From the NCBI RefSeq assembly GCF_000314895.2, contig NZ_CM001773.1, positions 3,719,372 through 3,783,371 on the forward strand: DNA of 64,000 nt, written 5' to 3'. The translations under genes were made by a program, and so were the position numbers. This document shows, one piece after another, positions 1 through 52,282 of this stretch. The notes below the pieces were generated by a model that was not told the DNA's origin, made no database searches, and saw nothing but the letters and a program-made list of their open reading frames with translations. The DNA comes from Providencia sneebia DSM 19967. Lineage in GTDB: Bacteria; Pseudomonadota; Gammaproteobacteria; Enterobacterales; Enterobacteriaceae. Within the stretch, counting starts at the first letter, position 1, and every line of letters begins with the position of its first letter.

Positions 1-420
<420 letters not shown>

Positions 421-589
421 AAAGTGTTTGATGCTCAAAGAATCTTTACTGTCGCCTGATTTCCGAAGAAACCAGATTACCTATTAGTTCATATGTATAT
501 GAATTAACGTGTTAGTCACTCTTCAAGACTTTTTCAATCAAATATTTTTTGATAGTGTCTTGTGAGTGCCCACACAGATTGTCTGATAA

Positions 590-602
590 ATTGTTAAAGA
601 GC
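590..602 (-). promoter_or_regulatory. rrn leader boxA antitermination site
   Basis: The minus strand reads GCTCTTTAACAAT, the canonical boxA of enterobacterial rRNA leaders. It lies about 170 bases upstream of the mature 16S end and downstream of both promoters. Known role: NusB/NusE assemble here to protect the untranslated rRNA transcript from Rho. Confidence 0.85.
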
Positions 603-654
603 GTTGCGACTATCTTTTGGATAGTGACCAGAGGTCTTTAACGCAAGGGGGCGT

Positions 655-683
655 ATAATACGCTTACCTTTTCGAGATGTCAA
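655..683 (-). promoter_or_regulatory. rRNA operon promoter P2
   Basis: On the minus strand TTGACA (683-678) and TATTAT (660-655) are separated by 17 bases, a near-consensus sigma-70 promoter, about 235 bases upstream of the mature 16S end. It is the downstream one of the usual tandem rrn pair. Confidence 0.85.
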
Positions 684-833
684 GCTTTTTTTCGCTTTTT
701 CTTTTCAGAACATCTCGCTGCCGTTTTGGTTAGCACTTCACTTAACATTAAGTCATTTAACTTCAAGTTGTTAACTGCGGCTCCATCACTCAGCGTTGCT
801 TTGCATCGCCTTGTTCCCGGTCAGTGGATGCGC

Positions 834-861
834 ATTATAGGGAGCTGGAGAATTCTGGCAA
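834..861 (-). promoter_or_regulatory. rRNA operon promoter P1
   Basis: On the minus strand TTGCCA (861-856) and TATAAT (839-834) are 16 bases apart, the short spacer typical of rrn P1. A-rich DNA just upstream (about 866-885) could be an UP element. The promoter begins about 80 bases past the restored hemG stop codon. Confidence 0.85.
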
Positions 862-942
862 GTGTTTTTTTGATTTTTTATTTCAACCGATGAAATATTA
901 AACCAATCGTTTAAAATCACAACTTTTTGTAGAAAATACACA

Positions 943-1466
943 CTACAATTGTTGAAATTCCTCTACAAACTTATTTACTTTATCCCAATTGGTATATTCT
1001 ATTTCTGTTTGCGGGTCTGTAGGTCCATTTGTCATTTTCATAATAAGCGGATCATTGTTCTATCAAACCAGCTATACCGCGGATAGCACAAAGCACCTGC
1101 GAATACGGAAATAAGCGTTGGGCTCCATGGACTCTTTTCTAAAAACTTTCGGGTATAAGCATTTGTAGCTGGAGTATCCTTACCTTCTTTTCTTGCTGTA
1201 AGATTGACGCTAAAAAAGGCAGTTTTCATTGTATTAAGCTGATTTTGATAGGCTGTCGCAAATCGTAGAAGCCTTTTATTAAAATGCCCATAACGAATAG
1301 ACGCACCTACTAATACCTTATTATAAGCAGATAAATTAAGATTTTTTTCAGTGTTCAGATCCCGTATATCACACTGACAACCTTGTGTTCTCAATTGTTC
1401 AGCTATTGTTAAGACAATCTTTTTAGTTTGACCATCCGTACTTGAATATAAGAGTAAATAACTCAT
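943..1466 (-). CDS. hemG: menaquinone-dependent protoporphyrinogen IX dehydrogenase HemG, broken by a 1-base deletion near the 3' end
   Basis: HemG oxidises protoporphyrinogen IX to protoporphyrin IX in heme synthesis; it is a flavodoxin-like FMN enzyme at the inner membrane. The phosphate-binding loop (STDGQT, residues 9-14) and the ASIRYGH motif (55-61) are visible. The open frame stops after DRTMIRLL at 1038, giving 142 residues, whereas the family has about 175-181. Past that point another frame continues as MKMTNGPTDPQTEIEYTNWD and ends at a stop at 943-945. Adding one base between 1042 and 1049 joins the two parts into 174 residues. The gene lies 16 bases after trkH and just ahead of the rRNA operon, as in E. 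coli. An error in the data is more likely than real loss of a heme gene, but a true frameshift cannot be ruled out. Confidence 0.9.
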
Positions 1467-1482
1467 TGTTAATCCTATTCAA

Positions 1483-2934
1483 CTAATCACGCCAGAAGGT
1501 TGGCGTAAATAATACCAATAAAGTGAAAACTTCAAGACGCCCAAATAGCATAGTCACAACAAGTATCCATTTACCCACCGGATTCATTGATGTGAAATTA
1601 TCCGCAACCGATCCTAAACCGGGCCCAAGGTTATTTAATGTTGTCGCGATAGCAGAAAAAGCAGAAAACTCATCAACACCTGTTGCTATTAAGATTAATA
1701 AGCTAACAATAAAGACAAGTGCATAAGCTGAAAAGAATCCCCATACGGCTTCGATAATGCGTTCTGGTAATGCCCTTTGCCCTAGCTTAATCGTATACAC
1801 GGCGTTAGGGTGAACTAACCTCTTTAATTCTCGAGAGCCTTGAAGGAATAATAATAAAATCCGTATGACCTTTAAGCCACCACCTGTTGAACCAGCACAG
1901 CCTCCAACAAAAGCAGCACATAATAGAAGCATAGGTAAAAAGAGCGGCCAACCAGAGAAGCTATCTGTTGTAAACCCTGCGGTTGTTGCCATTGAAACGA
2001 CTTGGAAAAAGGCTTGATCTAAAGTTTGCCCAAACGAATCGTATACTGCATGGTAGAGCAGTACCAACGTACAAATAATAACGAGCACTAGCTGAAAACT
2101 AATAAAGGTTTTAAATTCAGGATCTTTCCAATATATCCCTAAACTCCGCCCTGTTAATACGGCAAAGTGTAAGCCGAAATTACACCCTGAAATAATCAAA
2201 AATACGGCAATAATGGTATTAATTGCTGGACTATTAAAATAGCCAATACTGGCATCATGGGTTGAAAAGCCACCTATCGCTATTGTTGAAAAGCTATGTG
2301 AAATAGCATCAAAGACATCCATTCCTGCAAGCCACAAAGCAATAGCACACACAATGGTAAGTAAAACATAAATAAGCCAAAGGGTTTTTGCGGTTTCTGC
2401 AATTCGTGGCCGCATTTTATTATCTTTTAATGGCCCGGGCATTTCCGCGCGATAAAGCTGCATGCCACCGACCCCTAATAAGGGAAGAATTGCCACAGCT
2501 AAGACAATGATCCCCATACCACCGAGCCACTGTAGCATCTGCCGATAAAATAAAATGGCTTTTGGTAATGTATCTAGACCAACAAGTGTTGTTGCCCCCG
2601 TTGTTGTCAGCCCTGAAAAGGATTCAAAAAAAGCATCTGTAACTGAAAGATTTGGGCGCTCTGAAAAAATGAAGGGCAAAGCCCCCACACTCCCCAGAAC
2701 TGTCCAGAATAAAACAACAATTAAAAAACCTTCTTTTGCCTTCAGCTCATGTTTGCTGTTACGCGTTGGTATCCATAACATTAAGCCAATAATTAAAGCA
2801 GCGACAAATGTTTGGCTAAAAGCTCGTCCTGCACCATCACGATAAATAAGCGCGACAATGCCGGGGACGATCATCGTAAAAGAGAAGATAATAACGAGCA
2901 GCCCGACAATACGGGTTATTGCACGAAAATGCAT
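1483..2934 (-). CDS. trkH: Trk system potassium uptake protein TrkH
   Basis: Membrane-embedded potassium channel subunit of the Trk system, working with the peripheral NAD-binding TrkA. The 483 residues equal the E. coli length. About ten hydrophobic segments are visible. Four pore-loop motifs follow in order: GLTTTGAT near residue 108, IAIGGFSTHD near 218, SGCNFGLHF near 249 and ATTAGFTTD near 317, as expected of the four-fold pseudosymmetric pore with a glycine in each filter. It starts 23 bases after yigZ and runs into hemG, so pepQ-yigZ-trkH-hemG probably form one transcript. Assignment is firm on length, motifs and order. Confidence 0.97.
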   Translation of the reverse strand: MHFRAITRIVGLLVIIFSFTMIVPGIVALIYRDGAGRAFSQTFVAALIIGLMLWIPTRNSKHELKAKEGFLIVVLFWTVLGSVGALPFIFSERPNLSVTDAFFESFSGLTTTGATTLVGLDTLPKAILFYRQMLQWLGGMGIIVLAVAILPLLGVGGMQLYRAEMPGPLKDNKMRPRIAETAKTLWLIYVLLTIVCAIALWLAGMDVFDAISHSFSTIAIGGFSTHDASIGYFNSPAINTIIAVFLIISGCNFGLHFAVLTGRSLGIYWKDPEFKTFISFQLVLVIICTLVLLYHAVYDSFGQTLDQAFFQVVSMATTAGFTTDSFSGWPLFLPMLLLCAAFVGGCAGSTGGGLKVIRILLLFLQGSRELKRLVHPNAVYTIKLGQRALPERIIEAVWGFFSAYALVFIVSLLILIATGVDEFSAFSAIATTLNNLGPGLGSVADNFTSMNPVGKWILVVTMLFGRLEVFTLLVLFTPTFWRD

Positions 2935-2957
2935 TCGGCAGATTCCTTGCTAACCAA

Positions 2958-3578
2958 TTAACTATTTATAGATTCAGGTATGAGTTCTAAAGCACCGCGG
3001 CTTATATCACGTAATTTATCATTAACATCTTGTTCTAAGGTCGTTGGAATGGAAATACGCAAACGTACAACTTCATTGTAGTCACTATGTACTATCATGC
3101 CATTGACCTGAGTAATAAGTTGTTCAACATTATTAATCAATGAGTAATCACATACCAAATGGAAAATTTTTTGCGGTACTTTTATTTCCGTTGGCAACAA
3201 CTTAAGTGCTTGCTGGGCACCATTTCCATACGCTTTAACTAAACCGCCTGTGCCAAGTTTTATACCACCAAAATAGCGCACAACAACACAGGTAATTTCA
3301 CCGATCTGGCTGCCAAGCAATTGAGCCATAATAGGTTTACCTGCCGTACCCGTAGGTTCACCATCATCAGAAAAGCCCAATTGTTGGGAATCATCTGGCC
3401 GTCCAGCAACGAATGCCCAGCAATGGTGCCGGGCATCAGGATACTGTGCTTTGATGGATTGAATATACTCCTTCGCAGCATCAATACCCTCAGTGTGTGC
3501 TAAATAGGTAATAAAACGGCTTTTTTTAATTTCTTCTACAAAAGAAATGGATTCTGCCGGAATTAAATAAGATTTCAT
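2958..3578 (-). CDS. yigZ: YigZ, IMPACT family protein
   Basis: 206 residues, matching E. coli YigZ (about 204) from end to end. The N-terminal UPF0029/IMPACT domain shows the family motifs KSRFITYLAHT (residues 19-29), DARHHCWAF, GFSDDGEPTGTAGKP and VVRYFGGIKLGTGGLVKAYG; a smaller C-terminal domain with an EF-G-like fold is expected from the family. Eukaryotic IMPACT proteins modulate GCN2 signalling; the bacterial role is not settled. Its ATG at 3578 shares one base with the pepQ stop codon (TAATG), showing translational coupling. Confidence 0.95.
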   Translation of the reverse strand: MKSYLIPAESISFVEEIKKSRFITYLAHTEGIDAAKEYIQSIKAQYPDARHHCWAFVAGRPDDSQQLGFSDDGEPTGTAGKPIMAQLLGSQIGEITCVVVRYFGGIKLGTGGLVKAYGNGAQQALKLLPTEIKVPQKIFHLVCDYSLINNVEQLITQVNGMIVHSDYNEVVRLRISIPTTLEQDVNDKLRDISRGALELIPESINS

Positions 3579-4912
3579 TAAGGTAAATGCAGGTCTCGAG
3601 TCATATTTTCAACCCGATTATGGTGAATGATGATGTTATCTTCAATACGAATTCCCCCATAAGGTTTGAATTGTTCAATTTTATCCCAATTAAAATATCG
3701 GGTGAACTCACCTGCACGCCAAGGGGAAAGTAAAGATTCAATAAAATAGAGGCCCGGTTCAATAGTGACAACCATTCTTGGTTCTATCACTCGAGTACAA
3801 CGAAGAAATGGATACATTTTAGGCGCAGCAAGTAATGTTCCGTCTTCATCTTGCATAAATCCACCAGCATCATGAACCTGTAAGCCTAATAGATGTCCTA
3901 ACCCATGAGGTAAGAAAGGTGTTGTAATACCTTGCTCTACCATTGCTTCTTCACTGATATCCTTAATTATTGAATGTTTTTTCAATAATTTTGCGATCCG
4001 ATAATGCATATCGACATGGTAATCTGTGTAGCGAACACCCGCTTTAATTGAATCAATTAACGAGAGCTGTTGCTTGTTTAAGTCTGCAACTAACGCGGCA
4101 AAATCGTTTTTATTTTTCGCAGCATAGGTTCTCGTAATATCAGCAGCATAACCATTATATTCTGCACCTGCATCAATTAAAAAGCTGCGAGATTCACTCG
4201 GTGCCTTTTGCTGTAATTTTGTATAGTGCAAAACGGCTGCATTTTCATTTATCGCGATGATATTGTCATAAGGCACATCTGTATCACGATGACCAGTCGC
4301 TTCCAAGTAACTAATATTGATATCAAATTCACTCATGCCTGCTTGGAAGCCTTCAAACGCAGATAAATGACCATTTACCGCCATTTTCTGTGCTTCTCGC
4401 ATACAGTACATTTCATAATCAGTTTTATATGAACGGTGGTAATGATAAAAATCAATGACAGGTTTAGGATTAATATTATGCAGGCGAATACCTAAAGATT
4501 CTGCTTTTGCTTTATTAGGGCCGATATAAGCAACATGCTCTTTAGAAAGATTCGCTAAAAATTCATTAATATCATCAGCGTTTTTTAGATGAATCAGTTC
4601 GACTTCTTTTGTCCAAAAACCATTTGGTAGCGGCTCAACACTATGCCAATAGTCTACTGGTGAATAAAACCATAACTTAGGTTTATTAATACCATCAACT
4701 AATAGCCATGAATGTGGAACATCAGTGACTGGAACCCATGCTTTGAAATGTGCGTTGACTTTAAACGGATAATCTCTGTCATCCAAAAAAATACGTTGTG
4801 GGTCACCGGAGTGAATGAGTACGGCATCTAATTTACTGCGTTGTAAGACTTGCTGAGTTCGTTCTTGCAAAGTTTTAATATGTTCAGCGTAGAGTTCAGT
4901 CAGTTTTTCCAT
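3578..4912 (-). CDS. pepQ: Xaa-Pro dipeptidase PepQ
   Basis: Cytosolic metallopeptidase that splits dipeptides with C-terminal proline. It has the pita-bread creatinase/aminopeptidase P fold with a two-metal centre; the metal-binding motifs are visible in order: [16 protein letters not shown] (two aspartates), [14 protein letters not shown] (histidine), TIEPGLYF (glutamate) and GGIRIEDN (glutamate). I start at the ATG at 4912 (MEKLTELY), which matches the E. coli N-terminus; an in-frame TTG at 4921 is a weaker option. That gives 444 residues, the family length. It diverges from fadB across about 255 bases and leads the yigZ-trkH-hemG series. Confidence 0.96.
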
Positions 4913-5125
4913 TTCCTTCAACCTTTGAGCTTGATTAGAAAATCCAAGCTTAACACGTTCTTTAATATGCGGGTATGAGCTGTCGTAAATATCAATTTAA
5001 TTGATTGATTATTAATTAAAATATCATTTTTATTTAAATACATTCTACTTAATAGCTGTGATCTACCTTCCAATTCATTAATCAAATATTTGCATTTAAT
5101 TAACATTCTGGTCACACTCAAAACA

Positions 5126-5142
5126 ATCTGGTCATACCAGAT
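5126..5142. promoter_or_regulatory. FadR operator of fadBA
   Basis: ATCTGGTCATACCAGAT is a perfect inverted repeat with 7-base arms (ATCTGGT and ACCAGAT), carrying the TGGT...ACCA core of FadR operators. It lies 26 bases before the fadB start, where repression would act. A second half-site-like TCTGGTCACAC is at 5107-5117. FadR releases the DNA when it binds long-chain acyl-CoA. Confidence 0.75.
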
Positions 5143-5167
5143 GATTAAATCATCAGAGGAGAACAGC

Positions 5168-8531
<3,364 letters not shown>

Positions 8532-8583
8532 ATCATATAAAGATAATAGGTTTGCCGTAGTTCTGTTGTATCTTGTAGATATT

Positions 8584-8610
8584 CCCGCCTAGTCAGGGGC
8601 GGGCTTTTTA
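8584..8610 (+). terminator. Rho-independent terminator of fadBA
   Basis: CCCGCC (8584-8589) pairs with GGCGGG (8598-8603) and is followed by CTTTTTATTC, about 50 bases after the fadA stop. Confidence 0.85.
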
Positions 8611-8660
8611 TTCTTAATGATTATGAATAACTAGATAATTTTTTTAACTTTTTGATTTAA

Positions 8661-10295
8661 TTATACTGATTCTCTCAATGTAGATTTATCTTGTTTTATC
8701 CATTGTCCTTTATCAATTCCTGCGGCAAATTCAATAGAATCTCCATCCATAAAAATGCGTGTAATACCATCGGTATCATTTTTATATTTTCTAAGCATAT
8801 GCCTAATTTCAGAAAAAGTGATAGGTTCACGAATTTCTTGATTACCGACTACCCTTCTCTCATTATTATTATAATGTTTGTTTTCTATCTCCATTTTTGT
8901 AATTTTTTCAGCTCTTATTTTAGAGGGTTTATTCCAAGAACTTAATATAGTTATATTATTTTTATTAAAAAAATCCACACCTAATTTACTGGAGTTTCTA
9001 AAAAAATGCGTTTGAATTAATTCATGAATTCCGTACATTATTTCAAGAGATAGACAATCATCATTATACATTGTTCTGAGTTGACGCTCAGCCTGATGAA
9101 TATTTTTATTATCAAATAGATTATTCCCCTTTATAAAACAATCTAGATTTTTGATATCAACTGCACCAGAACTATTTTTTAATAATAGATTTTTTATTAA
9201 CTTATTTTTTTCATCTGTCGATAGATTTTTAGCATTAACATAATGAAAAACATCTAGCTTTGTTTGATTTACTTTCAAATAGTCATGCCATTTATAAAGT
9301 AAATCATCTGTGTAATTATATGTATCATTTAAATATTCGCTAGGAATTATAACTCTTGTTGCAATATCCTTTGATAAATTTTGTATATTGTATAATAATC
9401 CTTCTTTACTTACATTATCAATATCATCATAATATGCTATAATATCTAATCTATGATTAAGTGCTGCAATCGTTACAACATCATAAATTTTATCACAAAC
9501 TTCTTGATTATTTTGTATATACTCATCAACCAAATAGCGAAGCTTTTTTAAGAAACAATTGTGTATTAACACAGACATCCCGTGTAGATCATCACGTGAT
9601 AATTTACCGCGGGCATGCATACTTCTAAGTTGAGCTTCCACCTCATGAATATTTTTATTATCCAGAATATTATTATTATTTATGAAGTCACGTAACTTCT
9701 TATAATCTACATTATCAGATACCAAAGATGTAGCCTCATACGTTAGCAATCGACGTTTTTTATCTCCGAATGAAGCAAAAAAATCCATTTTAGATTTATT
9801 ACTTTCTACATAATCGACCATTTTACAGAGCGAACCATCCACATAACCTAAAGAATCACCAATTTGTTTAAAGTTATATATTCCTTTAGAAATAATGGAA
9901 ATATTTTTTAATAAGGTATTAGTCGTTGTTTTTTTAAGATCACAATTATTAACTGAGATTCCCATTCCATTCTGAAAGATATCAATTAGTTTAGTTATAT
10001 AATGATGATTTAACGTCCTTATATAATCAGATGCATCTCTTTGATGTGATGTAAAACCATAAACAGCCACCATTTTTGATTTGGTATAAGGAATATTTTT
10101 CTTAATATAACTTGGTGATATAAGCATATCCAAAAAATGTATTGTATCTTTATCATCGTATAAACGAGCACTACGATTAATATTAGATATACTTTTTATG
10201 TTTCTCCCTAATGATTTATTATTCGATACTTTAATTGATTTTGGTGTTTTAAAATTTATCCTACCTAAATTAATACTTTGATTTGTTTTATTCAA
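8661..10295 (-). CDS. AT-rich orphan gene of unknown function with an internal duplication
   Basis: I do not recognise this 544-residue protein. The start is a TTG at 10295, chosen because AAAGGAG (10308-10302) sits 6 bases before it and because the frame further upstream only runs through a low-complexity repeat that would encode YIL over and over. There is no signal peptide or membrane segment. The first 45 residues are polar (rich in Asn, Ser, Lys, Ile). Two diverged repeat units are visible: DNKNIHEVEAQLRSM at 212-226 and DNKNIHQAERQLRTM at 395-409, each preceded by a KMDFF/KLDVF-type segment, so the repeat period is about 183 residues. The end is charged (MLRKYKN, MDGDSIEFAAGIDKGQW). The gene is far richer in A+T than its neighbours and interrupts the conserved fadA-fre order, which suggests horizontal acquisition. 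A secreted effector is one possibility but nothing proves it. Confidence 0.75.
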   Translation of the reverse strand: MNKTNQSINLGRINFKTPKSIKVSNNKSLGRNIKSISNINRSARLYDDKDTIHFLDMLISPSYIKKNIPYTKSKMVAVYGFTSHQRDASDYIRTLNHHYITKLIDIFQNGMGISVNNCDLKKTTTNTLLKNISIISKGIYNFKQIGDSLGYVDGSLCKMVDYVESNKSKMDFFASFGDKKRRLLTYEATSLVSDNVDYKKLRDFINNNNILDNKNIHEVEAQLRSMHARGKLSRDDLHGMSVLIHNCFLKKLRYLVDEYIQNNQEVCDKIYDVVTIAALNHRLDIIAYYDDIDNVSKEGLLYNIQNLSKDIATRVIIPSEYLNDTYNYTDDLLYKWHDYLKVNQTKLDVFHYVNAKNLSTDEKNKLIKNLLLKNSSGAVDIKNLDCFIKGNNLFDNKNIHQAERQLRTMYNDDCLSLEIMYGIHELIQTHFFRNSSKLGVDFFNKNNITILSSWNKPSKIRAEKITKMEIENKHYNNNERRVVGNQEIREPITFSEIRHMLRKYKNDTDGITRIFMDGDSIEFAAGIDKGQWIKQDKSTLRESV

Positions 10296-10365
10296 GCCTG
10301 ACTCCTTTATCTTGATAAAATTATTATACTGTGTGGTTATATATGTTAATAACAAATAATTATTT

Positions 10366-10419
10366 AAAATATATAAAATATATAAAATATATAAAATATA
10401 TAAAATATATAAAATATAT
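10366..10419. repeat. 9-bp tandem repeat, six copies of AAAATATAT
   Basis: Six perfect head-to-tail copies of AAAATATAT fill 54 bases, starting 71 bases upstream of the TTG start of the orphan gene. Read on the minus strand each unit contains TATATTTT, so the array could supply or space a promoter. Perfect short arrays like this can change copy number by slippage. Confidence 0.9.
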
Positions 10420-10576
10420 ACAAAAAATATCATTATTAGTCTCATATTTAATATCAATATTTGAATATTAATGAATATAAGAAGGTATGCAAGAATCAAA
10501 AAAATGATAACTAATTGAATATAAAGACCATTGCATTTAAAACTGATTTATAACATTATCAGTATAAATAAAAAAT

Positions 10577-42486: not shown

Positions 42487-44184
42487 TTATACTCCAATCA
42501 TATCAATATTTGCCGCGCCCGGTGGAACCATTGGATAAACCTTCTGATTCACATCAATCAAAGCATGAATGAGGCATGGTCCTTTGGTATTCATCATCTC
42601 ATCTAACGCCATTTGCGGATCTGCTTCTTTATTTAAATCACAGGTTTTTAAACCAAAACCTTCCGCTATTTTAATAAAGTCAGTTTGATAAGGATAAGCA
42701 GCTGCATAAATGCGGTTATCAAAAAACAGCTCTTGTTGTTGATAAACCATACCTAATGCTTGGTTATTCATTAAAATGATTTTAATATTGAGCTGATGTT
42801 CCGCTGCCGTTGCTAACTCCTGAATATTCATCATCAAACTACCATCCCCAGAAAAACACACTATTGTTTGTTCTGGATTGGCTAATGCAGCCCCAATTGC
42901 GGCCGGTAGGCCAAAGCCCATAGTTCCTAAACCACCGGAGGTTAGCCATTGGCGTGGGCGAGATAATGGGTAGGCTTGTGCAGCCCACATCTGATGCTGA
43001 CCAACATCTGTTGTTATAATTGCATCATCACCCGCAGCTTTTGCAGTCGCTAATACCAATCCATAATGGTTCAAAGGATTATCCGCTTCACTTAAATTTA
43101 ACGGGAAATCACGTTTCAATTCATTAACTCTGGTCATCCACTCTTCACGAAGGTTTTTATCCACTAAAGGTAACAGCAACTCAAGGATCTGCCCTGCATC
43201 AGCATGAATAGCAATATCAGGGCGCTTAATTTTACTGATTTCCGCTTTATCAATATCGACGTGAATGATTTTGGCATTCGGACAAAACTTTTCTGCTCGA
43301 CCAATCGCCCTATCATCAAAACGAGCACCAATAACAATTAACAAATCGGCTTCTTCCATGATCATATTGGTGCTACGAGCCGCATGCATGCCTAACATCC
43401 CTAAATACAACGGATGGTGCATTGGAATAGTGCCCAAAGCCATTAATGTCATCGTGGTCGGCAACGTTGCTTTTTGCGCAAAGGCAATTGCTGTTTCAGC
43501 TGAGCTAGAACTAATCACTCCACCACCAAAATAGAGTACAGGGCGTTTAGATTGATTAATCATCTCCACAGCTTGGAGCACTTTTTCCATATCAAAACTC
43601 GGTGCTTTATCTTTTGGCTGAACATCAGGTACATTGGCTAATTCAATTGTTGCGGTTTGAACATCTTTTGGGATATCAATCCAAACGGGTCCCGGGCGAC
43701 CTGATTCAGCAATGCGGAATGCATCACAAATAACCTGTGGCAGCTCGTTAATATCACGAACTAAGTAATTATGTTTCGTGATAGGAATGGAAATACCGTA
43801 AGTATCAACTTCTTGAAAAGCATCTGTACCAATCATTGAAGAAGGAACTTGCCCAGTAATACATACCAATGGAATAGAATCCAATTTAGCATCTGCAATC
43901 GCTGTCACTAAGTTGGTTGCACCTGGGCCACTTGATGAAATGCATACCGCTGCTTTTCCCGTTGAGCGAGCGATACCTTGTGCAATAAAGCCAGCGCCTT
44001 GCTCATGTCGAGCAAGAATATGACGTATTGTTTTGCTCTTACCCAATGCATCATAGAAAGGTAAGGCTGCCCCACCGGGAATGCCAGAAACAATAGTAAT
44101 CCCATGTTTTTCCAATAAATGGACAATCAATTCTGCGCCTGTAAAACAGGTTTTATTGGTTGATATTGTGCTCGACTCACTCAT
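42487..44184 (-). CDS. ilvB: acetolactate synthase isozyme I large subunit IlvB
   Basis: Thiamine diphosphate enzyme of valine, leucine and isoleucine synthesis that condenses pyruvate with pyruvate or 2-oxobutyrate. The ATG at 44184 ([19 protein letters not shown]) with AAGGA upstream gives 565 residues (E. coli 562); the longer frame from 44229 starts within the attenuator and is not the true start. [15 protein letters not shown] has the catalytic glutamate, [15 protein letters not shown] and [13 protein letters not shown] the cofactor-binding motif, and [12 protein letters not shown] closes the protein. Confidence 0.97.
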
Positions 44185-44234
44185 AGTTTTATCCTTCACA
44201 CTAGCCGGAGGGTTCGAGCGGAGAGTCATAAAAA

Positions 44235-44263
44235 AACCCCGCTCGGTTTGCGCCGGCGGGGTT
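44235..44263 (-). terminator. ilvBN attenuator terminator
   Basis: On the minus strand AACCCCGC and GCGGGGTT form a GC-rich stem followed by TTTTTATG, 25 bases past the ivbL stop codon and 51 bases before the ilvB start. It is the terminator arm of a classical attenuator. Confidence 0.9.
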
Positions 44264-44287
44264 CTAATCTGCGTTGATTTGTACCCG

Positions 44288-44377
44288 TTACGGCGCTAAG
44301 CCCACGACCACCACCACACGCACGACCACCGCGGCACGTGGCGCGGTTAGTAGTAGGTTTGAATGATGAAGAGTCAT
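44288..44377 (-). CDS. ivbL: ilvBN leader peptide IvbL
   Basis: 29-residue leader peptide. It begins MTLHHSNLLLTAP, continues AAVVVRVVVVVGLAP and so has three leucines in a row and eight valines in a nine-residue block, matching the E. coli IvbL ending VVVVVGNAP. Slow reading of valine or leucine codons when the charged tRNAs are scarce would stop the terminator at 44235-44263 from forming. Too short for usual gene calling. Confidence 0.95.
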   Translation of the reverse strand: MTLHHSNLLLTAPRAAVVVRVVVVVGLAP

Positions 44378-44510
44378 GTTCACGGGTTTATCCTGTCTGT
44401 TTGAATGCGTTAAATTATTAATCATTATTTTGTGTAAGTGTTTTTAAGAAAACATATTTTTTTACTAATAACAATCATTTTTTCTATTTTTATCGCTATC
44501 AAAGTAAAAA

Positions 44511-44526
44511 CGTGATTAATATCACG
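44511..44526. promoter_or_regulatory. CRP-like palindrome upstream of ivbL-ilvBN
   Basis: CGTGATTAATATCACG is a perfect palindrome of the form (T)GTGA-6-TCAC, about 135 bases before ivbL. E. coli ilvBN is activated by cAMP-CRP, so this is the likely site. Confidence 0.7.
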
Positions 44527-44652
44527 TCAAATTTTTTTAGTTAATTATTCTTACTTTATTCAAATATGCAAAATAAATGAAAGGTCAATAAGATAAAAAG
44601 ATTGCCCGTTAAAGTATGGCGTCAACAAATCAATTTATACCCTAAAAAATAA

Positions 44653-44687
44653 AAACCCCTTTACAGCTTATTGCCATAAAGAGGTTT
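44653..44687 (-). terminator. terminator-like hairpin upstream of the ilv control region
   Basis: AAACCCCTTTA (44653-44663) pairs with TAAAGAGGTTT (44677-44687) apart from one position. On the minus strand it is followed by TTATTTTTTAG. Nothing recognisable is transcribed into it from 44690-45342 on the minus strand, so it may be left over from a lost gene. Confidence 0.6.
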
Positions 44688-44689
44688 AT

Positions 44690-45342
44690 TATTCATTTCT
44701 TATATCGTTAGTATTATTTTATTAGATTCAAGTTGTTATCTAAATAATAATACTCAACTAAATATAACCCTGCTCTATCTTAGAACGGTTATGGTTACCT
44801 TGTTAAAATGGATTGCCTATTAAGCCATTGTTAAATAAAAAATAAAAACCAACAACAACTAAAACGGTAAAGAATTTCGTTAAAAAGTCACGAAAACCAA
44901 TAAAACTTTATAAAAATACATCAAGCTATCTTGTATGCAATGATACCATTCTAATCGTGTATGAGTAACTACACTTATTTCTCTAAACATATATCTAGGA
45001 TTCTCAAAAGTAGCGTTTAATGCCTATTGAAATGGGAAGGGGGCGGGCTTGTTCCTCGACTCTGTAGACACATCCATGCATAAACAAAATTTGGTCAAAT
45101 GGTGAGTAAATAAAGTATTAGGTAAGAAGAGATGCCTGTTCTAACCAATAATATGGCGAAAGTGAGCTATACGATTTACTTAATTAGTAAGTTATGGATT
45201 AGATTAAGTACTGCGATCATCTTAGTGCTTAGTGTAAGTGCCCAAAGTCACAGGAACTGATCTACGTCACTGCTTTTCTAAATGGGAAGTATAAGAATGC
45301 AATTGACTGCAACTATTCACTAAATTGTACAAGAGCTAAAAA
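44690..45342. other. 650-base non-coding stretch before the RloC-like gene
   Basis: Mostly AT-rich with no convincing open frame, RNA gene or insertion sequence. A short G-rich stretch at 45033-45050 (GGGAAGGGGGCGGG) stands out. The promoter of the RloC-like gene must lie near the end; TATAAG at 45291-45296 is a possible -10 box. The composition and lack of genes fit an insertion hotspot. Confidence 0.5.
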
Positions 45343-47559
45343 ATGATTAACACCATAATATTAAAAGGTGTAGCTAGTTACTCACCAACTTCGCCAGTGG
45401 TTATTCAAACTGACAACAAGAAGATAAACCTATTCTATGGTTTAAATGGTTCTGGTAAGTCCACAATAGGTAAATTTTTACATTCTCCTGAATTACCCGA
45501 ATATCGAAACTGTTCCATTCAACCTCGTGAGTTGGTTGAAGATATCTTTGTTTACAATCAAGAATTTATACGTGGCAACTTCTATGAAATTCCTGACTTT
45601 CAGGGGGTATTCACTCTGAGCGAAGAAAACAAAGAAGCCGAACAAGCAATCGAAGAAGCAACAGAAAAAATAGCTCGCCTACACCAAAGTATCGAGGTTT
45701 CCAAAACAAAGATAAGTCGCAAGCAAAGTGACATAGAAAATGAAGAGACTTTACTAAAGGAATCTGTCTGGAAAGCAAAAACCACATATGAAAATGGCGC
45801 ACTAGATTTTTGTCTAGAAGGATTACGGAGAAACAAAGTTGGCTTTCTGAACAAGGTCAGATCAAGTAGTGGAAGTGTCACATCTACAATTGAATCTCTG
45901 CGAAAAGAGGCTCGTGAGTTAACAGGGCAAGACGGTAGTCTACGTCCAAACGTACCCAAGATTAGCCTTGATGTCAGTAACTTTGAAAATGCTCCGATTT
46001 TAACTCAAATTATTGTGGGATCTAAGGATTCATATCTATCCGACTTAGTCGAAAAACTAGGCAATTCTGACTGGGTAAAATCAGGTCTGGGATATATGAA
46101 ACCCGATAATCCGTGTCCTTTTTGCCAGCAAGAGTTAAGCTCATCGATTACTGAAGCGATCAATCAACTATTTGACGAGACATATTCCCAAAAAGTCAGC
46201 CAGATAGAAGGGTTATCTAGCAGCTACAGAGCTTTAGTTAACGATATTAAGAGCAAATTATCGGCTCCAGTATACGCTTTTGAAGATGGTGTAGTTACAT
46301 ATGGCTTCGTAGACAAGAGAGATCTACTGCTTGAAAAGTTATCAGCTAACTTGTCTCAAATTGATCTTAAAATCAGCAACCCGAGTACGGTGGTTACGCT
46401 TACCGATACGAGCACTCTAGTGGCAGATGTTAATACTGCGATAGACAAAATACAAAGAGATATAGATCTATTCAATGATAGGGTCAGAAACAAAAAAAGC
46501 CATTTGAATAGAATAGATTCGGAGTTTTGGGTGATCCTGAATGAGCAGTTTAGCGCTCTCATCGCAGCTTCAGATGAAAAGGTTAACGACCTTCAAGCTG
46601 AAATAGAAAAACTATCCGATGAAATCGGGCTGTTTCGTAGCCAAGAGATTGCTCAAAGAATTATCATTACTGAAAACCAGAAAAAAATAACTAACATTGA
46701 TTCGTCGATAAACAATATCAATCAACAACTGGTTGAGCTAGGTATACACAGTTTTAAAATTGTTAAAGCAGCAAACGATCAGCAACGTTACAAAATTGCC
46801 CGCCCTACAGGTGAAAGTGCTGACGTATATAACACCCTTAGTGAAGGAGAAAAAACACTCATTAGCTTTCTTTACTTCCTAGAGTGTGCTTCAGGTTCAA
46901 CAAACGAATCCTCTCCTGTTTTGCTGAACAACCGAATCGTTGTAATTGATGATCCTATTTCTAGCTTGTCACACAACTACGTCTATGATATTGCAGCCCT
47001 GATACATCACAAAGTCTTTAGTGAAAACTTCAAACAAGTCTTCCTACTGACGCATAACCTATTCTTTTTCCACGAATTATTAATGCTCAAGAACGCATCT
47101 AACAAATGCCCTGCTGGATATAAACTGTATAGAGTTGCCAAATCACAGTTTAGCCTCGTTTATGATTTAAAGAGGGATGAACTTCAAAATGATTACCAAA
47201 TGTATTGGCAAGTCGTCAAAGACAGTACTTCTAATCCAAGCTACGCACACATGCTACCCAACGCGATAAGAAATATACTGGAGCACTACTTCAATTTTGT
47301 TCATAAGAAAGAGTCACTAAAGCAAACATTGGAGCAATTAGGTCAAACAGAGTCAGATTTTAAGCCTTTGTTTAGGTACATAAATAGAGAGTCTCATTCT
47401 GATTCGATTAACCTAGTAGACTTTGAAAGAATCAATGCTGAAAGGTACATTGAAAAATTCAAACAGATATTTGTAAAAACTGGTTTCGAAGAACACTACA
47501 ACAGTATGATGGGGATTGAAAGCACGACTAAGATTGATGCAGAAGCAGAGTCTGCTTAA
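45343..47559 (+). CDS. AAA_13 family ATPase with zinc hook, RloC/PrrC-like anticodon nuclease candidate
   Basis: 738 residues. Walker A is GLNGSGKST (33-41) and a long coiled coil (about 95-190 and 280-465) is split by a zinc hook CPFC (258-261), as in RloC and Rad50/SMC-like proteins. The signature motif LSEGEKT is at 499-505, Walker B VVIDDPISS ends near 541, and LLTHN carries the switch histidine (571). The C-terminal part has Arg643-X3-Glu647 and His685 (RNILEHYF, NRESHS), resembling the Arg, Glu, His triad of the tRNA anticodon nucleases PrrC and RloC. RloC cuts tRNA after DNA damage or phage signals and is a suicide defence. No restriction-modification genes lie nearby; the gene is alone between ivbL and ssb. 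The nuclease role is inferred; a nuclease-free AAA_13 ATPase is the alternative. Confidence 0.85.
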   Translation: MINTIILKGVASYSPTSPVVIQTDNKKINLFYGLNGSGKSTIGKFLHSPELPEYRNCSIQPRELVEDIFVYNQEFIRGNFYEIPDFQGVFTLSEENKEAEQAIEEATEKIARLHQSIEVSKTKISRKQSDIENEETLLKESVWKAKTTYENGALDFCLEGLRRNKVGFLNKVRSSSGSVTSTIESLRKEARELTGQDGSLRPNVPKISLDVSNFENAPILTQIIVGSKDSYLSDLVEKLGNSDWVKSGLGYMKPDNPCPFCQQELSSSITEAINQLFDETYSQKVSQIEGLSSSYRALVNDIKSKLSAPVYAFEDGVVTYGFVDKRDLLLEKLSANLSQIDLKISNPSTVVTLTDTSTLVADVNTAIDKIQRDIDLFNDRVRNKKSHLNRIDSEFWVILNEQFSALIAASDEKVNDLQAEIEKLSDEIGLFRSQEIAQRIIITENQKKITNIDSSINNINQQLVELGIHSFKIVKAANDQQRYKIARPTGESADVYNTLSEGEKTLISFLYFLECASGSTNESSPVLLNNRIVVIDDPISSLSHNYVYDIAALIHHKVFSENFKQVFLLTHNLFFFHELLMLKNASNKCPAGYKLYRVAKSQFSLVYDLKRDELQNDYQMYWQVVKDSTSNPSYAHMLPNAIRNILEHYFNFVHKKESLKQTLEQLGQTESDFKPLFRYINRESHSDSINLVDFERINAERYIEKFKQIFVKTGFEEHYNSMMGIESTTKIDAEAESA

Positions 47560-47570
47560 TTGAAGCTTGG

Positions 47571-47794
47571 TGGGGCTACCGATGACACCTATCGTCTAGG
47601 GAGTGAACGAAGATGTTGACAAACATCTTCCCATTTTCCTAGGCGATAGCGTTGATATTTTCTAACATTGACAACTTTCGGTTTCATGTTAGCCACCTCG
47701 CATATCTGCGACAGTGATAGTCACTGACAACTCTTGCAAACCATTTACAAGCTGTAATTGTTGCATTTGTTGTTGGCAGTAGGCGGTAGCCCCA
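47571..47794. repeat. segment bounded by 11-bp inverted repeats, with nested hairpins
   Basis: TGGGGCTACCG (47571-47581) and CGGTAGCCCCA (47784-47794) are perfect inverted repeats 224 bases apart end to end. The segment begins 12 bases after the stop of the RloC-like gene. Inside it CTATCGTCTAGG (47589-47600) pairs with CCTAGGCGATAG (47638-47649), one mismatch, around a second hairpin GAAGATGTT/AACATCTTC (47609-47617, 47622-47630). Smaller stems follow (TCGCA/TGCGA, CAGTGA/TCACTG). I do not recognise the family. Confidence 0.65.
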
Positions 47795-48070
47795 GCTCAT
47801 TTATAGCAAATTCAGATTATTATATCTACCATAAAATGATTTCACGGTATCATTTTTCTGTTGCGAAACCATAAACTATTGTAAGGCAGAAACGCCAATC
47901 CAAACGTGGCACCTTTACCGTAATGTGTGTTTTGGGCCAAGGATGTGTTTGCAGTGATCGGCTCTAGCACATATCTGGACAAAAGCATCATAGCACGGAA
48001 TAGATTGAATCAGAGATGAGCTGAACTAAATAGAGAAGATGAACCGAGGAACTAATTTAACTGAGGTAAA

Positions 48071-48355
48071 TTAAAGTGCATTGGGTTGAAGGCTGGGTGA
48101 ACCAGATAACCCCATTGAAACAGCAATAACGGTCGCCTTGACCCAACGCAACATTTTGGTTTTCAGGCTATTATTCATAGGCTTATTCCTCTTAGTTGGT
48201 GTTTTCAGAACTGTTGTTTTATCCTTACGGATGGTTGTTGTTTCAGGAAGATTTGAACTTCCAAGTATACATGCTTCTAACTCTATGCTTATTGGCGATG
48301 ATGTTTCTACGCTATAGGCCAAGCAGATGCCGCTACCGCCTTCATGCCAATGCAC
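48071..48355 (-). CDS. doubtful 94-codon open frame inside the MITE-like element
   Basis: The frame begins at a GTG and ends at a TAA that both lie in the terminal inverted repeats, so it fills the element from end to end. Weak ribosome site. The product (MHWHEGGSGICLAYSV at the start, MGLSGSPSLQPNAL at the end) resembles nothing I know. It is probably non-coding. Confidence 0.15.
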   Translation of the reverse strand: MHWHEGGSGICLAYSVETSSPISIELEACILGSSNLPETTTIRKDKTTVLKTPTKRNKPMNNSLKTKMLRWVKATVIAVSMGLSGSPSLQPNAL

Positions 48356-48360
48356 TTTAA
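48071..48360. mobile_element. MITE-like element with 25-bp terminal inverted repeats
   Basis: The ends TTAAAGTGCATTGG..TGAAGGC.G are inverted copies (48071-48095 and 48336-48360) that match at 22 of 25 positions. The 290-base segment encodes no transposase. It lies between the RloC-like gene and ssb. No clear target duplication is visible next to the ends, although TAAA/TTTAA at the borders may hide a short one. It looks like a non-autonomous insertion; the parent element is unknown to me. Confidence 0.6.
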
Positions 48361-48526
48361 CCAGTTGAATATAGCACGAAAACCTCTGAAGATGAATGTA
48401 ATTTAAATGTGTATTGAACGGTAACTAGCGTAGATCATTTCTGATTTTTATTGATAAGTTCAAGTCGCCATTTGAAATACTTTTGTCTTCATTCTGTCCT
48501 TAAACCTACTAAAAAATAGCATAAAA

Positions 48527-48563
48527 AAAGTTTACAGAAGTTGCAAGACTCACTGTAAACTTT
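48527..48563 (-). terminator. terminator of ssb
   Basis: AAAGTTTACAG and CTGTAAACTTT form an 11-bp stem; on the minus strand TTTTATG follows, 68 bases past the ssb stop. Confidence 0.85.
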
Positions 48564-48630
48564 TATCCCAAACCTTTGTTATATTTAATTTAAATAATCA
48601 AACTTAACAAAAATAGGCCTCAGATAATTG

Positions 48631-49152
48631 CTAGAACGGGATATCATCATCGAAGTCGATTGGTGGTTCATTATTTTGTGGTGCAGGTGCTTGTGAACGT
48701 GCTGGCGCACCGCCGCCACTGAATTGTTGTGATGCAGCAGGTTGTTGAGGTTGACCCCAGCCGCCTTGGCCGCTACCTTGGCTTTGACCTGAAGAATCAC
48801 CACCGCGGCCACCCAACATTTGCATTGAGCCACCAATATTAACAACAACTTCTGTGGTGTAGCGGTCTTGACCACTTTGGTCTTGCCACTTACGAGTTTG
48901 CAAAGAACCTTCAATGTAAACTTGAGAACCTTTTTTCAGGTATTCGCCAGCAACTTCCGCTAATTTCCCGAAAATCACAACACGGTGCCATTCGGTTTTT
49001 TCACGCATTTCGCCAGTTTGTTTATCGCGCCAGCTTTCAGAAGTTGCCAGAGTTAGGTTTGCAACTGCACCACCGTTAGGCATGTAACGGATTTCAGGAT
49101 CTTGCCCTAAGTTACCGATAAGAATTACTTTATTTACGCCTCTGCTGGCCAT
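48631..49152 (-). CDS. ssb: single-stranded DNA-binding protein Ssb
   Basis: Tetrameric protein that coats single-stranded DNA in replication, repair and recombination. 173 residues (E. coli 178). The N-terminal OB fold shows [40 protein letters not shown] and [21 protein letters not shown] flexible Gly/Gln/Pro tail from about 115 leads to the acidic tip DFDDDIPF that binds partner proteins. Divergent from uvrA, with which it shares a LexA site. Confidence 0.98.
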
Positions 49153-49367
49153 TTAAATACTCCTGATGCATTAAATTTTAATCACTGTATTGACCGTGAA
49201 GTTTAGCACGGTCGACTTACATTGCCTATGTATTGCAGATGAAATTGAAAATTGCTTCTTCAATTTGCGAGTGGTTTTGAAAAAATTTATGAGAATCGCT
49301 TTGAAAATTTTATTTCTGCCATCTTAATCAATTTCGACAGCTCGCGAAAATACTTTTTCATAAAACA

Positions 49368-49383
49368 CTGTATATTCATTCAG
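49368..49383. promoter_or_regulatory. LexA (SOS) box between ssb and uvrA
   Basis: CTGTATATTCATTCAG has the CTG-10-CAG LexA pattern and is the same sequence as the E. coli uvrA SOS box. It lies 64 bases before uvrA in the 295-base divergent region, so it can control uvrA and one ssb promoter. Confidence 0.9.
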
Positions 49384-49447
49384 TCGAAGTTGTGCGATAA
49401 TGTTTGGCTTATGATTGTTCACTATCAAATCATCCGGGAAGTGGTAA

Positions 49448-52282
49448 ATGGATAATATCGAAGTACGCGGTGCCCGCACCCATAATCTGAAAAACATCAA
49501 TCTCATCATCCCCCGCGACAAGCTGATAGTCATTACGGGTTTGTCAGGATCAGGAAAGTCATCACTTGCTTTTGATACATTGTACGCGGAAGGGCAGCGC
49601 CGTTATGTCGAATCCTTATCTGCTTACGCAAGGCAATTTCTATCTTTGATGGAAAAGCCTGATGTTGATCATATCGAAGGGTTATCGCCGGCTATTTCGA
49701 TTGAACAAAAATCAACATCACACAACCCAAGATCGACAGTTGGAACAATTACCGAAATTCATGATTATTTAAGGCTCCTATTTGCCCGGGTTGGTGAACC
49801 ACGTTGTCCTGATCACGATATTCCCCTTGCGGCACAAACTGTCAGCCAAATGGTCGATAATGTTTTAGCGCAGCCGACAGATCGCCGCATGATGCTACTC
49901 GCACCTGTCGTGAAAGATCGGAAGGGTGAACATGTTAAATTATTAGATAACTTGGCATCCCAAGGCTACATTCGTGCGCGTATTGACGGAGAAGTCTGTG
50001 ATCTGTCTGATCCACCAACTCTCGAACTACAAAAGAAACATACCATTGAAGTTGTCGTGGATCGTTTTAAAATTCGCGATGATATTGCTCAACGCTTAGC
50101 TGAATCTTTTGAAACCGCACTCGATCTTTCTGGTGGGACAGCTGTTGTTGCTGATATGGATGATCCAAATGCTGAAGAACTTATTTTTTCAGCAAACTTT
50201 GCCTGCCCTGTCTGTGGTTATAGCATGGTGGAATTGGAGCCGCGCTTATTTTCCTTCAATAACCCAGCCGGAGCCTGCCCAAGTTGTGATGGACTTGGCG
50301 TACAACAATTTTTTGATCCTGAAAGAGTCATCCAAAGTACTGAGATTTCACTTGCAGGTGGCGCAATTCGTGGTTGGGATCGCCGCAATTTTTACTATTT
50401 TCAAATGCTGATGTCATTGGCTGAACATTATAAATTTGATGTTGAAGCACCTTATGATTCACTCAGCCCAGACATTCAAAAAGTGATTCTTTACGGGTCC
50501 GGCAAGGAAACCATTGAATTTAAATACCGTAATGACCGCGGTGATATTACTATCCGCCATCACCCTTTTGAAGGCGTTCTGAATAACATGGAACGGCGTT
50601 ATAAAGAGACGGAATCTACCGCCGTACGTGAAGAACTCGCCAAATATATTAGTAACCGACCTTGTGTTTCATGCCACGGTACCCGCTTACGCAAAGAAGC
50701 ACGCTATGTTTTTGTTGAAAATACGACATTGCCTGAAATTGCTGACTACAGTATTGGTCATGCTATGGAATTTTTCCAAAATTTAAAACTTAGTGGTCAA
50801 CGGGCGCAAATAGCAGAAAAAGTACTAAAAGAAATTGGCGATCGCTTGAAATTTTTAGTGAATGTCGGCCTTAATTACTTAACTCTTTCTCGCTCTGCCG
50901 ATACTTTGTCTGGTGGTGAGGCGCAACGTATTCGTCTTGCAAGCCAAATTGGTGCAGGTCTTGTTGGTGTGATGTATGTTCTTGATGAACCATCAATTGG
51001 CTTACATCAACGCGATAATGATCGTTTATTAGAAACCTTAATTCATCTGCGTGACCTCGGTAATACTGTGATTGTTGTTGAGCATGATGAAGATGCGATA
51101 CGTGCAGCAGATCATATTATTGATATTGGACCTGGTGCCGGTGTTCATGGTGGGCAAATTGTCGCCCAAGGCACATTAGAAGATATTGTCTCAAACCCAG
51201 AATCACTAACCGGTAAATTCTTAAGTGGTGAACGTCGGATTGATATTCCAAAACAGCGGATACCTGTTGATAAAGATAAAGTGCTCAAAATTATTGGCGC
51301 AAAAGGCAATAATTTAAAAAATGTCACTTTAACTCTGCCTGTTGGTTTATTTACCTGTATTACTGGCGTTTCAGGATCAGGCAAATCAACTTTGATCAAT
51401 GACACCTTGTTCCCGATCGCGCAAAGACAATTAAATGGTGCAACAACCATCACGCCAGCACCTTATTTAGAAGTCGAAGGGCTAGAACACTTTGATAAAG
51501 TGATTGATATTGACCAAAGCCCTATTGGGCGCACACCGCGTTCTAACCCTGCAACTTATACGGGTGTCTTTACCCCAATTCGTGAGCTATTTGCTGGTGT
51601 GCCCGAATCACGTACTCGCGGCTACAATCCAGGCCGTTTTAGCTTCAACGTCAAAGGTGGACGCTGTGAAGCTTGCCAAGGTGATGGTGTTATCAAAGTA
51701 GAAATGCACTTTTTGCCTGATGTGTATGTTCCTTGCGATCAATGTAAAGGTAAGCGCTATAACAGAGAAACGTTAGAAATAAAGTACAAAAGTAAAAATA
51801 TTCATGAAGTGCTGGATATGACCATTGAAGAAGCTCGTGAATTTTTTGATGCGGTGCCTGCGCTGGCGCGTAAGCTGCAAACTTTGATTGATGTAGGGCT
51901 TTCCTATATTCGTTTAGGGCAATCTGCCACTACATTATCCGGTGGTGAAGCACAGCGGGTTAAACTGGCGCGTGAATTATCTAAACGCGGAACGGGTCAA
52001 ACTCTCTATATTCTTGATGAACCAACCACAGGTCTACATTTCGCAGATATTCAGCAACTATTGAAGGTATTACATCAATTACGTGACCAAGGAAATACCA
52101 TTGTTGTCATTGAGCATAATCTTGATGTAATCAAAACAGCGGATTGGATTGTTGATTTAGGTCCTGAAGGTGGTAGTGGTGGCGGTGAAATTTTAATTTC
52201 CGGTACACCTGAAAAAGTTGCAGAATGTGAAAAATCACACACGGCCCGTTTCTTAAAACCTATTTTAGAACGGGGTTACTAG
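49448..52282 (+). CDS. uvrA: excinuclease ABC subunit UvrA
   Basis: Damage-recognising ATPase of nucleotide excision repair, dimeric, loading UvrB. 944 residues (E. coli 940). Two ABC ATPase halves: Walker [11 protein letters not shown] (31-40) and [10 protein letters not shown] (about 640), each with a signature SGGEAQR and a Walker [12 protein letters not shown] or [11 protein letters not shown]. Zinc modules CPVC/CPSC, CVSC and CEAC/CDQC are present. SOS control through the upstream LexA box. Confidence 0.98.

Follow-up and report, generated by a model that had tools for sequence, protein, structure and literature searches.

Comparison of a 64,000-nucleotide stretch of Providencia sneebia DSM 19967 (the window) with related genomes, plasmids and viral contigs indicates that the open reading frame (ORF) at 45343-47559 on the plus strand is a real gene of the RloC group, encoding an ABC ATPase of the anticodon-nuclease type. 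It is probable (roughly 0.62) that this gene specifies an RloC-type suicide nuclease and that it belongs to a horizontally moving 2.8-kb unit with a convergent, modulating micro-gene. The nuclease is a further member of an already known kind, and the micro-gene, centred on a 32-codon ORF (the micro-ORF) at 47589-47687 on the minus strand, is the new part. A sequence-only reading of the window had called the nuclease solitary and perhaps self-contained; it missed the micro-gene, which is conserved and moves with the nuclease. The observation made in that reading is partly confirmed and its interpretation partly supported.

The frame at 45343-47559 was found as described earlier, with 738 amino acids. 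Residues 25-710 match Pfam AAA_13 (E 5.6e-119), which a profile search detected once in the whole assembly. In addition, residues 1-725 match model positions 1-724 of 727 in the PADLOC candidate defence family PDC-S06 (863.8 bits); this full-length likeness concerns the nuclease gene alone, and PDC-S06 has been listed among the systems predicted for one strain (PMC11514479). The ABC ATPase head contains the Walker A motif GLNGSGKST from residue 33, the signature LSEGEKT from residue 499 and the Walker B stretch IVVIDDPISSL at residue 532. The coiled-coil insert carries a CXXC hook, CPFC, at residues 258-261, and the predicted model has long helices at residues 97-149 and 384-449. The C-terminal domain holds the R-x3-E and H triad as R643, E647 and H685. 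All of these motifs lie exactly at the positions proposed by the sequence-only reading. In 72 of 72 aligned homologues, with identities down to about 34%, the residues K39, C258, C261, E501, D536 and D537 are unchanged, as are R643, N644, E647 and H685, which argues that the motifs are not due to chance.

A profile comparison aligned the C-terminus to PrrC (probability 95.9, E 6.3e-9) with the R, E and H triad in register, as expected if this region is RloC/PrrC-like. The Rx4-6H motif of the HEPN superfamily is also present as R678-x6-H685 (R678 in at least 90% and H685 in 100% of the 72 rows), and the R-x6-H spacing is identical in five PrrC proteins. These residues bear on whether the protein might instead be a DNA-repair ATPase like Rad50 or SbcC, with a C-terminal domain other than a nuclease. 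Its best fold matches are indeed Rad50 and SMC heads, indicating a Rad50-like head. A profile search against solved structures matched, at E 4.6e-5 to 0.007, coiled coils, chains of Rad50 and SMC type and one entry named 'Predicted protein', a single-sequence search gave one chance-like match, and the C-terminal domain had no conclusive fold match. However, R643, N644, E647 and H685 are invariant and aligned with PrrC, and Rad50 and SbcC are without such a C-terminal region in the available part of the source (PMC2610378); a repair ATPase is thus very improbable.

PrrC shares with the nuclease the ABC ATPase motifs, the anticodon-nuclease triad and the R-x6-H spacing. It differs in its length (371-398 amino acids versus 738) and, in the excerpts available, in having no zinc-hook insert and in being tied to a type Ic restriction-modification (R-M) locus, hsd. 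No hsd genes were seen here by eye, and no R-M gene was seen by eye among window ORFs of at least 100 amino acids. HSDR_N was not found in the assembly by a search that was positive in 9 of 14 control genomes, types II and III not being searched. Within that scope, the earlier statement that the gene stands without R-M genes is borne out. Because it combines a zinc-hook CXXC with a missing hsd locus, the nuclease fits RloC and not PrrC. The lack of R-M neighbours is normal for RloC, since RloC is as a rule found without linked R-M genes, according to the part of the source at hand (PMC3874168). Excerpts on RloC of Geobacillus kaustophilus and Acinetobacter baylyi ADP1 describe an ABC ATPase interrupted by a coiled coil that bears a CXXC hook, the triad R-x3-E ... 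H and usually no R-M linkage, and the likeness to these named proteins rests on their descriptions. In contrast, the E-to-H distance is 41 in RloC of G. kaustophilus (E696, H737) and 38 here, and those excerpts contain no mention of a linked micro-gene.

The following mechanism may be proposed for the nuclease. The Rad50-like ABC ATPase head, the coiled coil and the CPFC zinc hook would restrain the C-terminal RNase domain (R643, E647, H685). Once infection or DNA breakage changes the state of the head, the RNase would be released, and it would then cut the anticodon loops of host tRNAs, halting translation and phage growth. RloC is further characterized by a zinc- and DNA-responsive removal of the wobble nucleotide of tRNA. 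It is possible, but on balance unlikely, that the RNase is real and not an anticodon nuclease, and that it cuts mRNA or rRNA, acts mainly against plasmids or serves mobile elements as an addiction module. Some HEPN-type RNases are mRNases (PMC3710099), and relatives of the nuclease are frequent on plasmids (226 records, 87 of them with at least 80% query coverage at one place). On the other hand, RloC and PrrC, which have the same triad and are the nearest relatives studied biochemically, are described as cutting anticodon loops.

The micro-gene lies in the 3' part of the 2.8-kb unit. This part is highly conserved even in Oceanospirillum (L012), whose nuclease is just 55% identical, and its profile matches, in one orientation or the other, next to many further RloC-like genes. 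The conservation is explained by the minus-strand micro-ORF at 47589-47687, whose 32 codons (MKPKVVNVRKYQRYRLGKWEDVCQHLRSLPRR) run convergently with the nuclease gene. In a codon test on 19 of 26 micro-ORFs (171 pairs), the divergence at codon positions 1, 2 and 3 was 0.236, 0.182 and 0.593, and the high third-position value points to selection as a protein. The synonymous share of codon differences was 59% in the micro-ORF frame and 4-8% in the other frames, except for one antisense frame (46%) that has common wobble positions and contains stops in 10 of the 19 sequences. The deduced arginine-rich 32-mer has 14 residues invariant in the 19 sequences and follows the pattern V-x-V-R-x-Y-x-R-x-R-x-G-x-W-E-x-V-C-x-H-x-R-S-x-P. 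The micro-protein of the window matches phrog_21154 (E 3.5e-7), to which PHROGs assigns no function, and the profile hidden Markov model of that family matched the conserved core of 5 of 5 micro-proteins (E 1.4e-7 to 2e-6). No NCBIfam family was found for the micro-proteins, and Pfam gave one chance-level match (NUDIX, E 0.17) to one of them. Structured non-coding RNA alone, first suggested by the fold of the plus strand (z -4.7), was ruled out by the coding signal of the minus-strand frame. By these comparisons, the micro-ORF codes for a protein although its RNA is also folded. Annotation tends to overlook the micro-gene because it is so short: among the 40 plasmid places in the matches listed, 36 have no gene under the micro-ORF in the PLSDB table, which is incomplete, and 4 have a 'hypothetical protein'. 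A search of open-licence papers found none whose title or abstract start concerns the micro-gene.

Upstream of the micro-ORF, a structured leader occupies 47688-47752 on the minus strand, with hairpin 1 at 47733-47751, hairpin 2 at 47712-47726 and, by eye, a ribosome-binding-like AGGTGG before the ATG. Two hairpins within 75 nt ahead of the ATG were recovered from the leader fold of 17 of the 26 micro-ORFs. Across the 17 sequences, both partners have changed in 8 of the 9 pairs of hairpin 1, and G-U pairs occur among them, as would be expected of an RNA more than of a DNA operator. Two-sided changes affect 3 of the 4 pairs predicted for hairpin 2, with some cells broken and a poor MAFFT alignment in that region. 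Leader and ORF together are enclosed by an exactly matching inverted repeat, with the arm TGGGGCTACCG at 47571-47581 on the 3' side of the micro-gene and the arm CGGTAGCCCCA at 47784-47794 on its 5' side. Similarly, exact inverted repeats of at least 10 nt surround leader and ORF in 24 of 36 loci, close relatives included, and per locus only 0-4 of 200 shuffles, which keep letters only, gave equally long ones. In those 24 loci, the arms lie 91-119 nt ahead of the start and 7-20 nt past the stop, some distances being measured from the first matched codon instead of the ATG. The arm sequences vary between groups, yet the arms keep matching each other; in the other 12 loci the inverted repeats are shorter or misplaced. 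For the window, the 227-nt micro-gene RNA has a predicted folding energy of -83 kcal/mol (z -6.42, none of 200 shuffles as low). A known RNA family, tRNA or tmRNA was rejected as an explanation by Rfam, tRNA and tmRNA searches, which found none at the micro-gene; at eight further loci, the RNA matches (plasmid RNAI, C4, c4-a1b1 and weak ones) all lie away from it.

The micro-gene would thus be an RNA of about 225 nt with a strong fold and a 32-codon ORF, most likely modulating the nuclease as a regulator, antidote or trigger, and it is a candidate silencer, antidote or sensor. Its strong fold, closing stem and partner-related leader speak for action as RNA, and the strong purifying selection on the arginine-rich 32-mer speaks for action as a peptide; either may be hypothesized.

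The linkage of the two genes was assessed in 57 loci, comprising the window and loci found via the nuclease protein, with the weak partial matches L008 and L009 left out. The micro-ORF adjoins the RloC-like gene in 29 of them (1 of 1 in the window, 3 of 6 in relatives, 22 of 41 in genome contigs, 1 of 3 in viral records and 2 of 6 in hand-picked phage and plasmid records) and is missing in 28. The arrangement is convergent in 12 cases (gaps of 28-54 bp), downstream on the same strand in 16 and upstream divergent in 1. In 60 genomes of relatives, the own genome included, the micro-ORF occurs in 4, every time directly beside an RloC-like gene. On a tree of 46 of the 57 nucleases, the micro-ORF label changes 3 times (shuffled mean 15.6, none of 500 as low), a value to which near-copies contribute. 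The other 11 (L004, L006, L007, L012, L020, L037, L045, L048, L050, L152 and L153) were left out because their script-called ORF was shorter than 650 amino acids or not found. Judged from these sequences, the association is old and has outlasted changes of orientation. In the 700 bp downstream of 12 nucleases lacking the micro-gene, common DNA was found only among the Pseudomonas loci L014, L016, L018 and L030. As to what keeps RloC-type nucleases silent when no R-M partner is present, the micro-gene, found beside about half of these relatives, offers a concrete and deletable candidate.

An RloC-only companion was ruled out, as relatives of the micro-ORF were also found elsewhere in viral contigs, plasmids and genomes. 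In viral contigs it occurs at 54 places, of which 22 are beside an RloC-like gene, 11 have a same-strand pair of helix-turn-helix (HTH) and Peptidase_M78 genes no more than 1 kb away, and 21 were left unassigned; these counts are biased because the search profile was built from RloC-side sequences. The M78 genes were identified by Pfam in 2 cases and otherwise with a profile built on these and on proteins resembling them. Genomes of the class gave just 7 matches in 369 (E <= 0.001): the own one lies at RloC, a second has an M78 gene nearby, and 5 have none of the gene types tested in flanks of up to 1.5 kb. The relative in L087 (genome G276) lies beside an M78 peptidase gene and, by eye, KilA-N-like and PIN-like genes, and that in L089 (genome G127) lies, by eye, between ribonucleotide reductase-like genes, with no defence gene noticed within 1.5 kb on either side.

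Plasmids contributed 120 records with a micro-ORF match. Genes for defence and for toxin-antitoxin systems abound on small plasmids. Neighbours were inspected at 13 places, hand-chosen to span organisms from 40 listed among the 120 records. In L187 and L195 the micro-ORF lies beside a PDC-M12A/B pair (PADLOC), and L188 and L189 have neighbours with the same annotation; in L195 it also converges on a DUF4145 gene that weakly resembles PD-T7-4. It lies between a retron-type reverse transcriptase gene (RT_VI model) and a DUF3800 gene in L190, convergent with a gene annotated as Abi family in L197, and 0.7 kb ahead of an N-6 DNA methylase gene in L191. It is near DNA methyltransferase and Xre/MbcA/ParS antitoxin genes in L198, after a multiubiquitin-ThiF-DUF6527 operon in L199 and 1.2 kb from BrnTA in L196. 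The remaining three places have an RloC-like gene as neighbour, identified from the annotation in L192 and from the sequence in L194, and reduced to a fragment in L193. In L193, a Citrobacter freundii plasmid, an 80-amino-acid piece, 87% identical over 71 amino acids to the C-terminus of the L194 nuclease, adjoins ISKpn26; the adjacent micro-gene is intact, with a DUF1778-GNAT pair on the other side. Relatives of the micro-ORF thus adjoin other defence or toxin-antitoxin genes on plasmids and in prophages. Enrichment beside such genes is suggested and not proved, because the plasmid survey had no null control.

Based on these neighbours, two further explanations were weighed. The micro-gene could be an independent passenger of defence islands or phages that is often situated close to defence genes without interacting with the nuclease. 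Its places beside HTH-M78 pairs, PDC-M12, retron-type reverse transcriptase and others, and the 5 genome loci away from all tested gene types, fit such a passenger. However, adjacency in 29 of 57 RloC-like loci against 7 of 369 genomes, and the few label changes on the nuclease tree, are at odds with it. Moreover, a covariance model built from the two leader hairpins on the RloC side detected 10 of 13 RloC-side micro-genes (missing L155, L193 and L194) and 0 of 49 other loci (E < 0.1). A passenger therefore has a real chance of being the correct explanation, albeit the lesser one. By eye, a comparable pair of hairpins with a different sequence is present in the PDC-M12-side leaders as well as in the leaders of L193 and L194. 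A bolder proposal, tentative and rather doubtful, sees in the micro-gene a general partner of bacterial immune systems. It would be a compact folded RNA that contains the micro-ORF, is closed by an inverted repeat and accompanies unrelated suicide-type systems (RloC-like nucleases, PDC-M12 ATPase pairs, retron reverse transcriptase, Abi and HTH-M78), in each of which the RNA or the peptide would serve as an antidote or sense infection. If the micro-gene does serve several unrelated defence systems, it would be a common control part of bacterial immunity.

The nuclease and the convergent micro-gene also appear to have moved together. BLASTN of window positions 44000-49500 gave a single matching block in Aliivibrio (L011) and Xenorhabdus (L010), at 45160-47937 (to 47916 in L010) with 89-91% DNA identity. 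This 2.8-kb block is likely the transferred unit, and it includes a conserved non-coding stretch 5' of the nuclease gene (45160-45342, plus strand), kept in both hosts and probably a promoter or leader region. The nuclease protein is 98% identical to one from Providencia huaxiensis and one from Proteus mirabilis, 95% to a P. alcalifaciens relative and 82-90% to relatives of Vibrio, Aliivibrio and Xenorhabdus. In the same-genus genome G018, positions 44902-48461 are 96% identical and both flanking sides 77-83%. The block in distant hosts and the lower identity on either side of the G018 stretch strongly indicate recent horizontal transfer, in which the gene would travel among gamma-proteobacteria together with its micro-gene.

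Such movement might also be explained if the micro-gene were the end of a small mobile element, with terminal inverted repeats and a tiny ORF. The exact repeats at similar distances around the micro-gene and the block common to distant hosts agree with this. Nevertheless, the repeats surround the micro-gene and not the whole unit, their sequence varies between groups while the arms match, the leader contains G-U pairs, and no recombinase gene was seen in common among the loci with listed ORFs (L010, L011, L012, L028 and L039), which makes this explanation improbable. By eye, L010 and L028 have a phage-type integrase and L039 a Tn7-like operon, and none was noticed near the gene in L011 and L012. 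The earlier claim that the nuclease is flanked by short repeats was not confirmed: in 44600-48600 the direct repeats are two-copy repeats of 15-21 nt, the inverted pairs are imperfect, and none lies at the ends of the unit.

In the window, the neighbours of the nuclease gene are, by eye, ilvB/ilvN and ssb. In L062, L066, L067 and L073, the ilvB-side and ssb-side matches end just 245-285 bp apart, and these loci look like empty sites; several other relatives have different genes between the ilvB side and ssb. Between the nuclease unit and ssb, the window contains a 23-nt inverted repeat (48071-48093 and 48338-48360, 91% complementary, 244 nt apart). In the same-genus relatives L176 and L185, integrase-like operons begin behind ssb, that of L185 leading to type I R-M-like genes; by eye, these operons look like GInt elements. 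GInts are stated to favour the end of ssb as a site in the available part of the source (PMC5385486). A GInt element was rejected as the explanation in the window, where no integrase-like operon was seen behind ssb.

In Pseudomonas fluorescens H24 (L039, positions 323-5535 and 8001-10157), the RloC-like gene lies about 2.5 kb behind what looks by eye like a Tn7/TniQ-type transposition operon, and because of this position it may be transposon cargo. Elsewhere in the window, a 612-codon frame at 8661-10499 on the minus strand has a run of YIL repeats near its start and is perhaps phase-variable.
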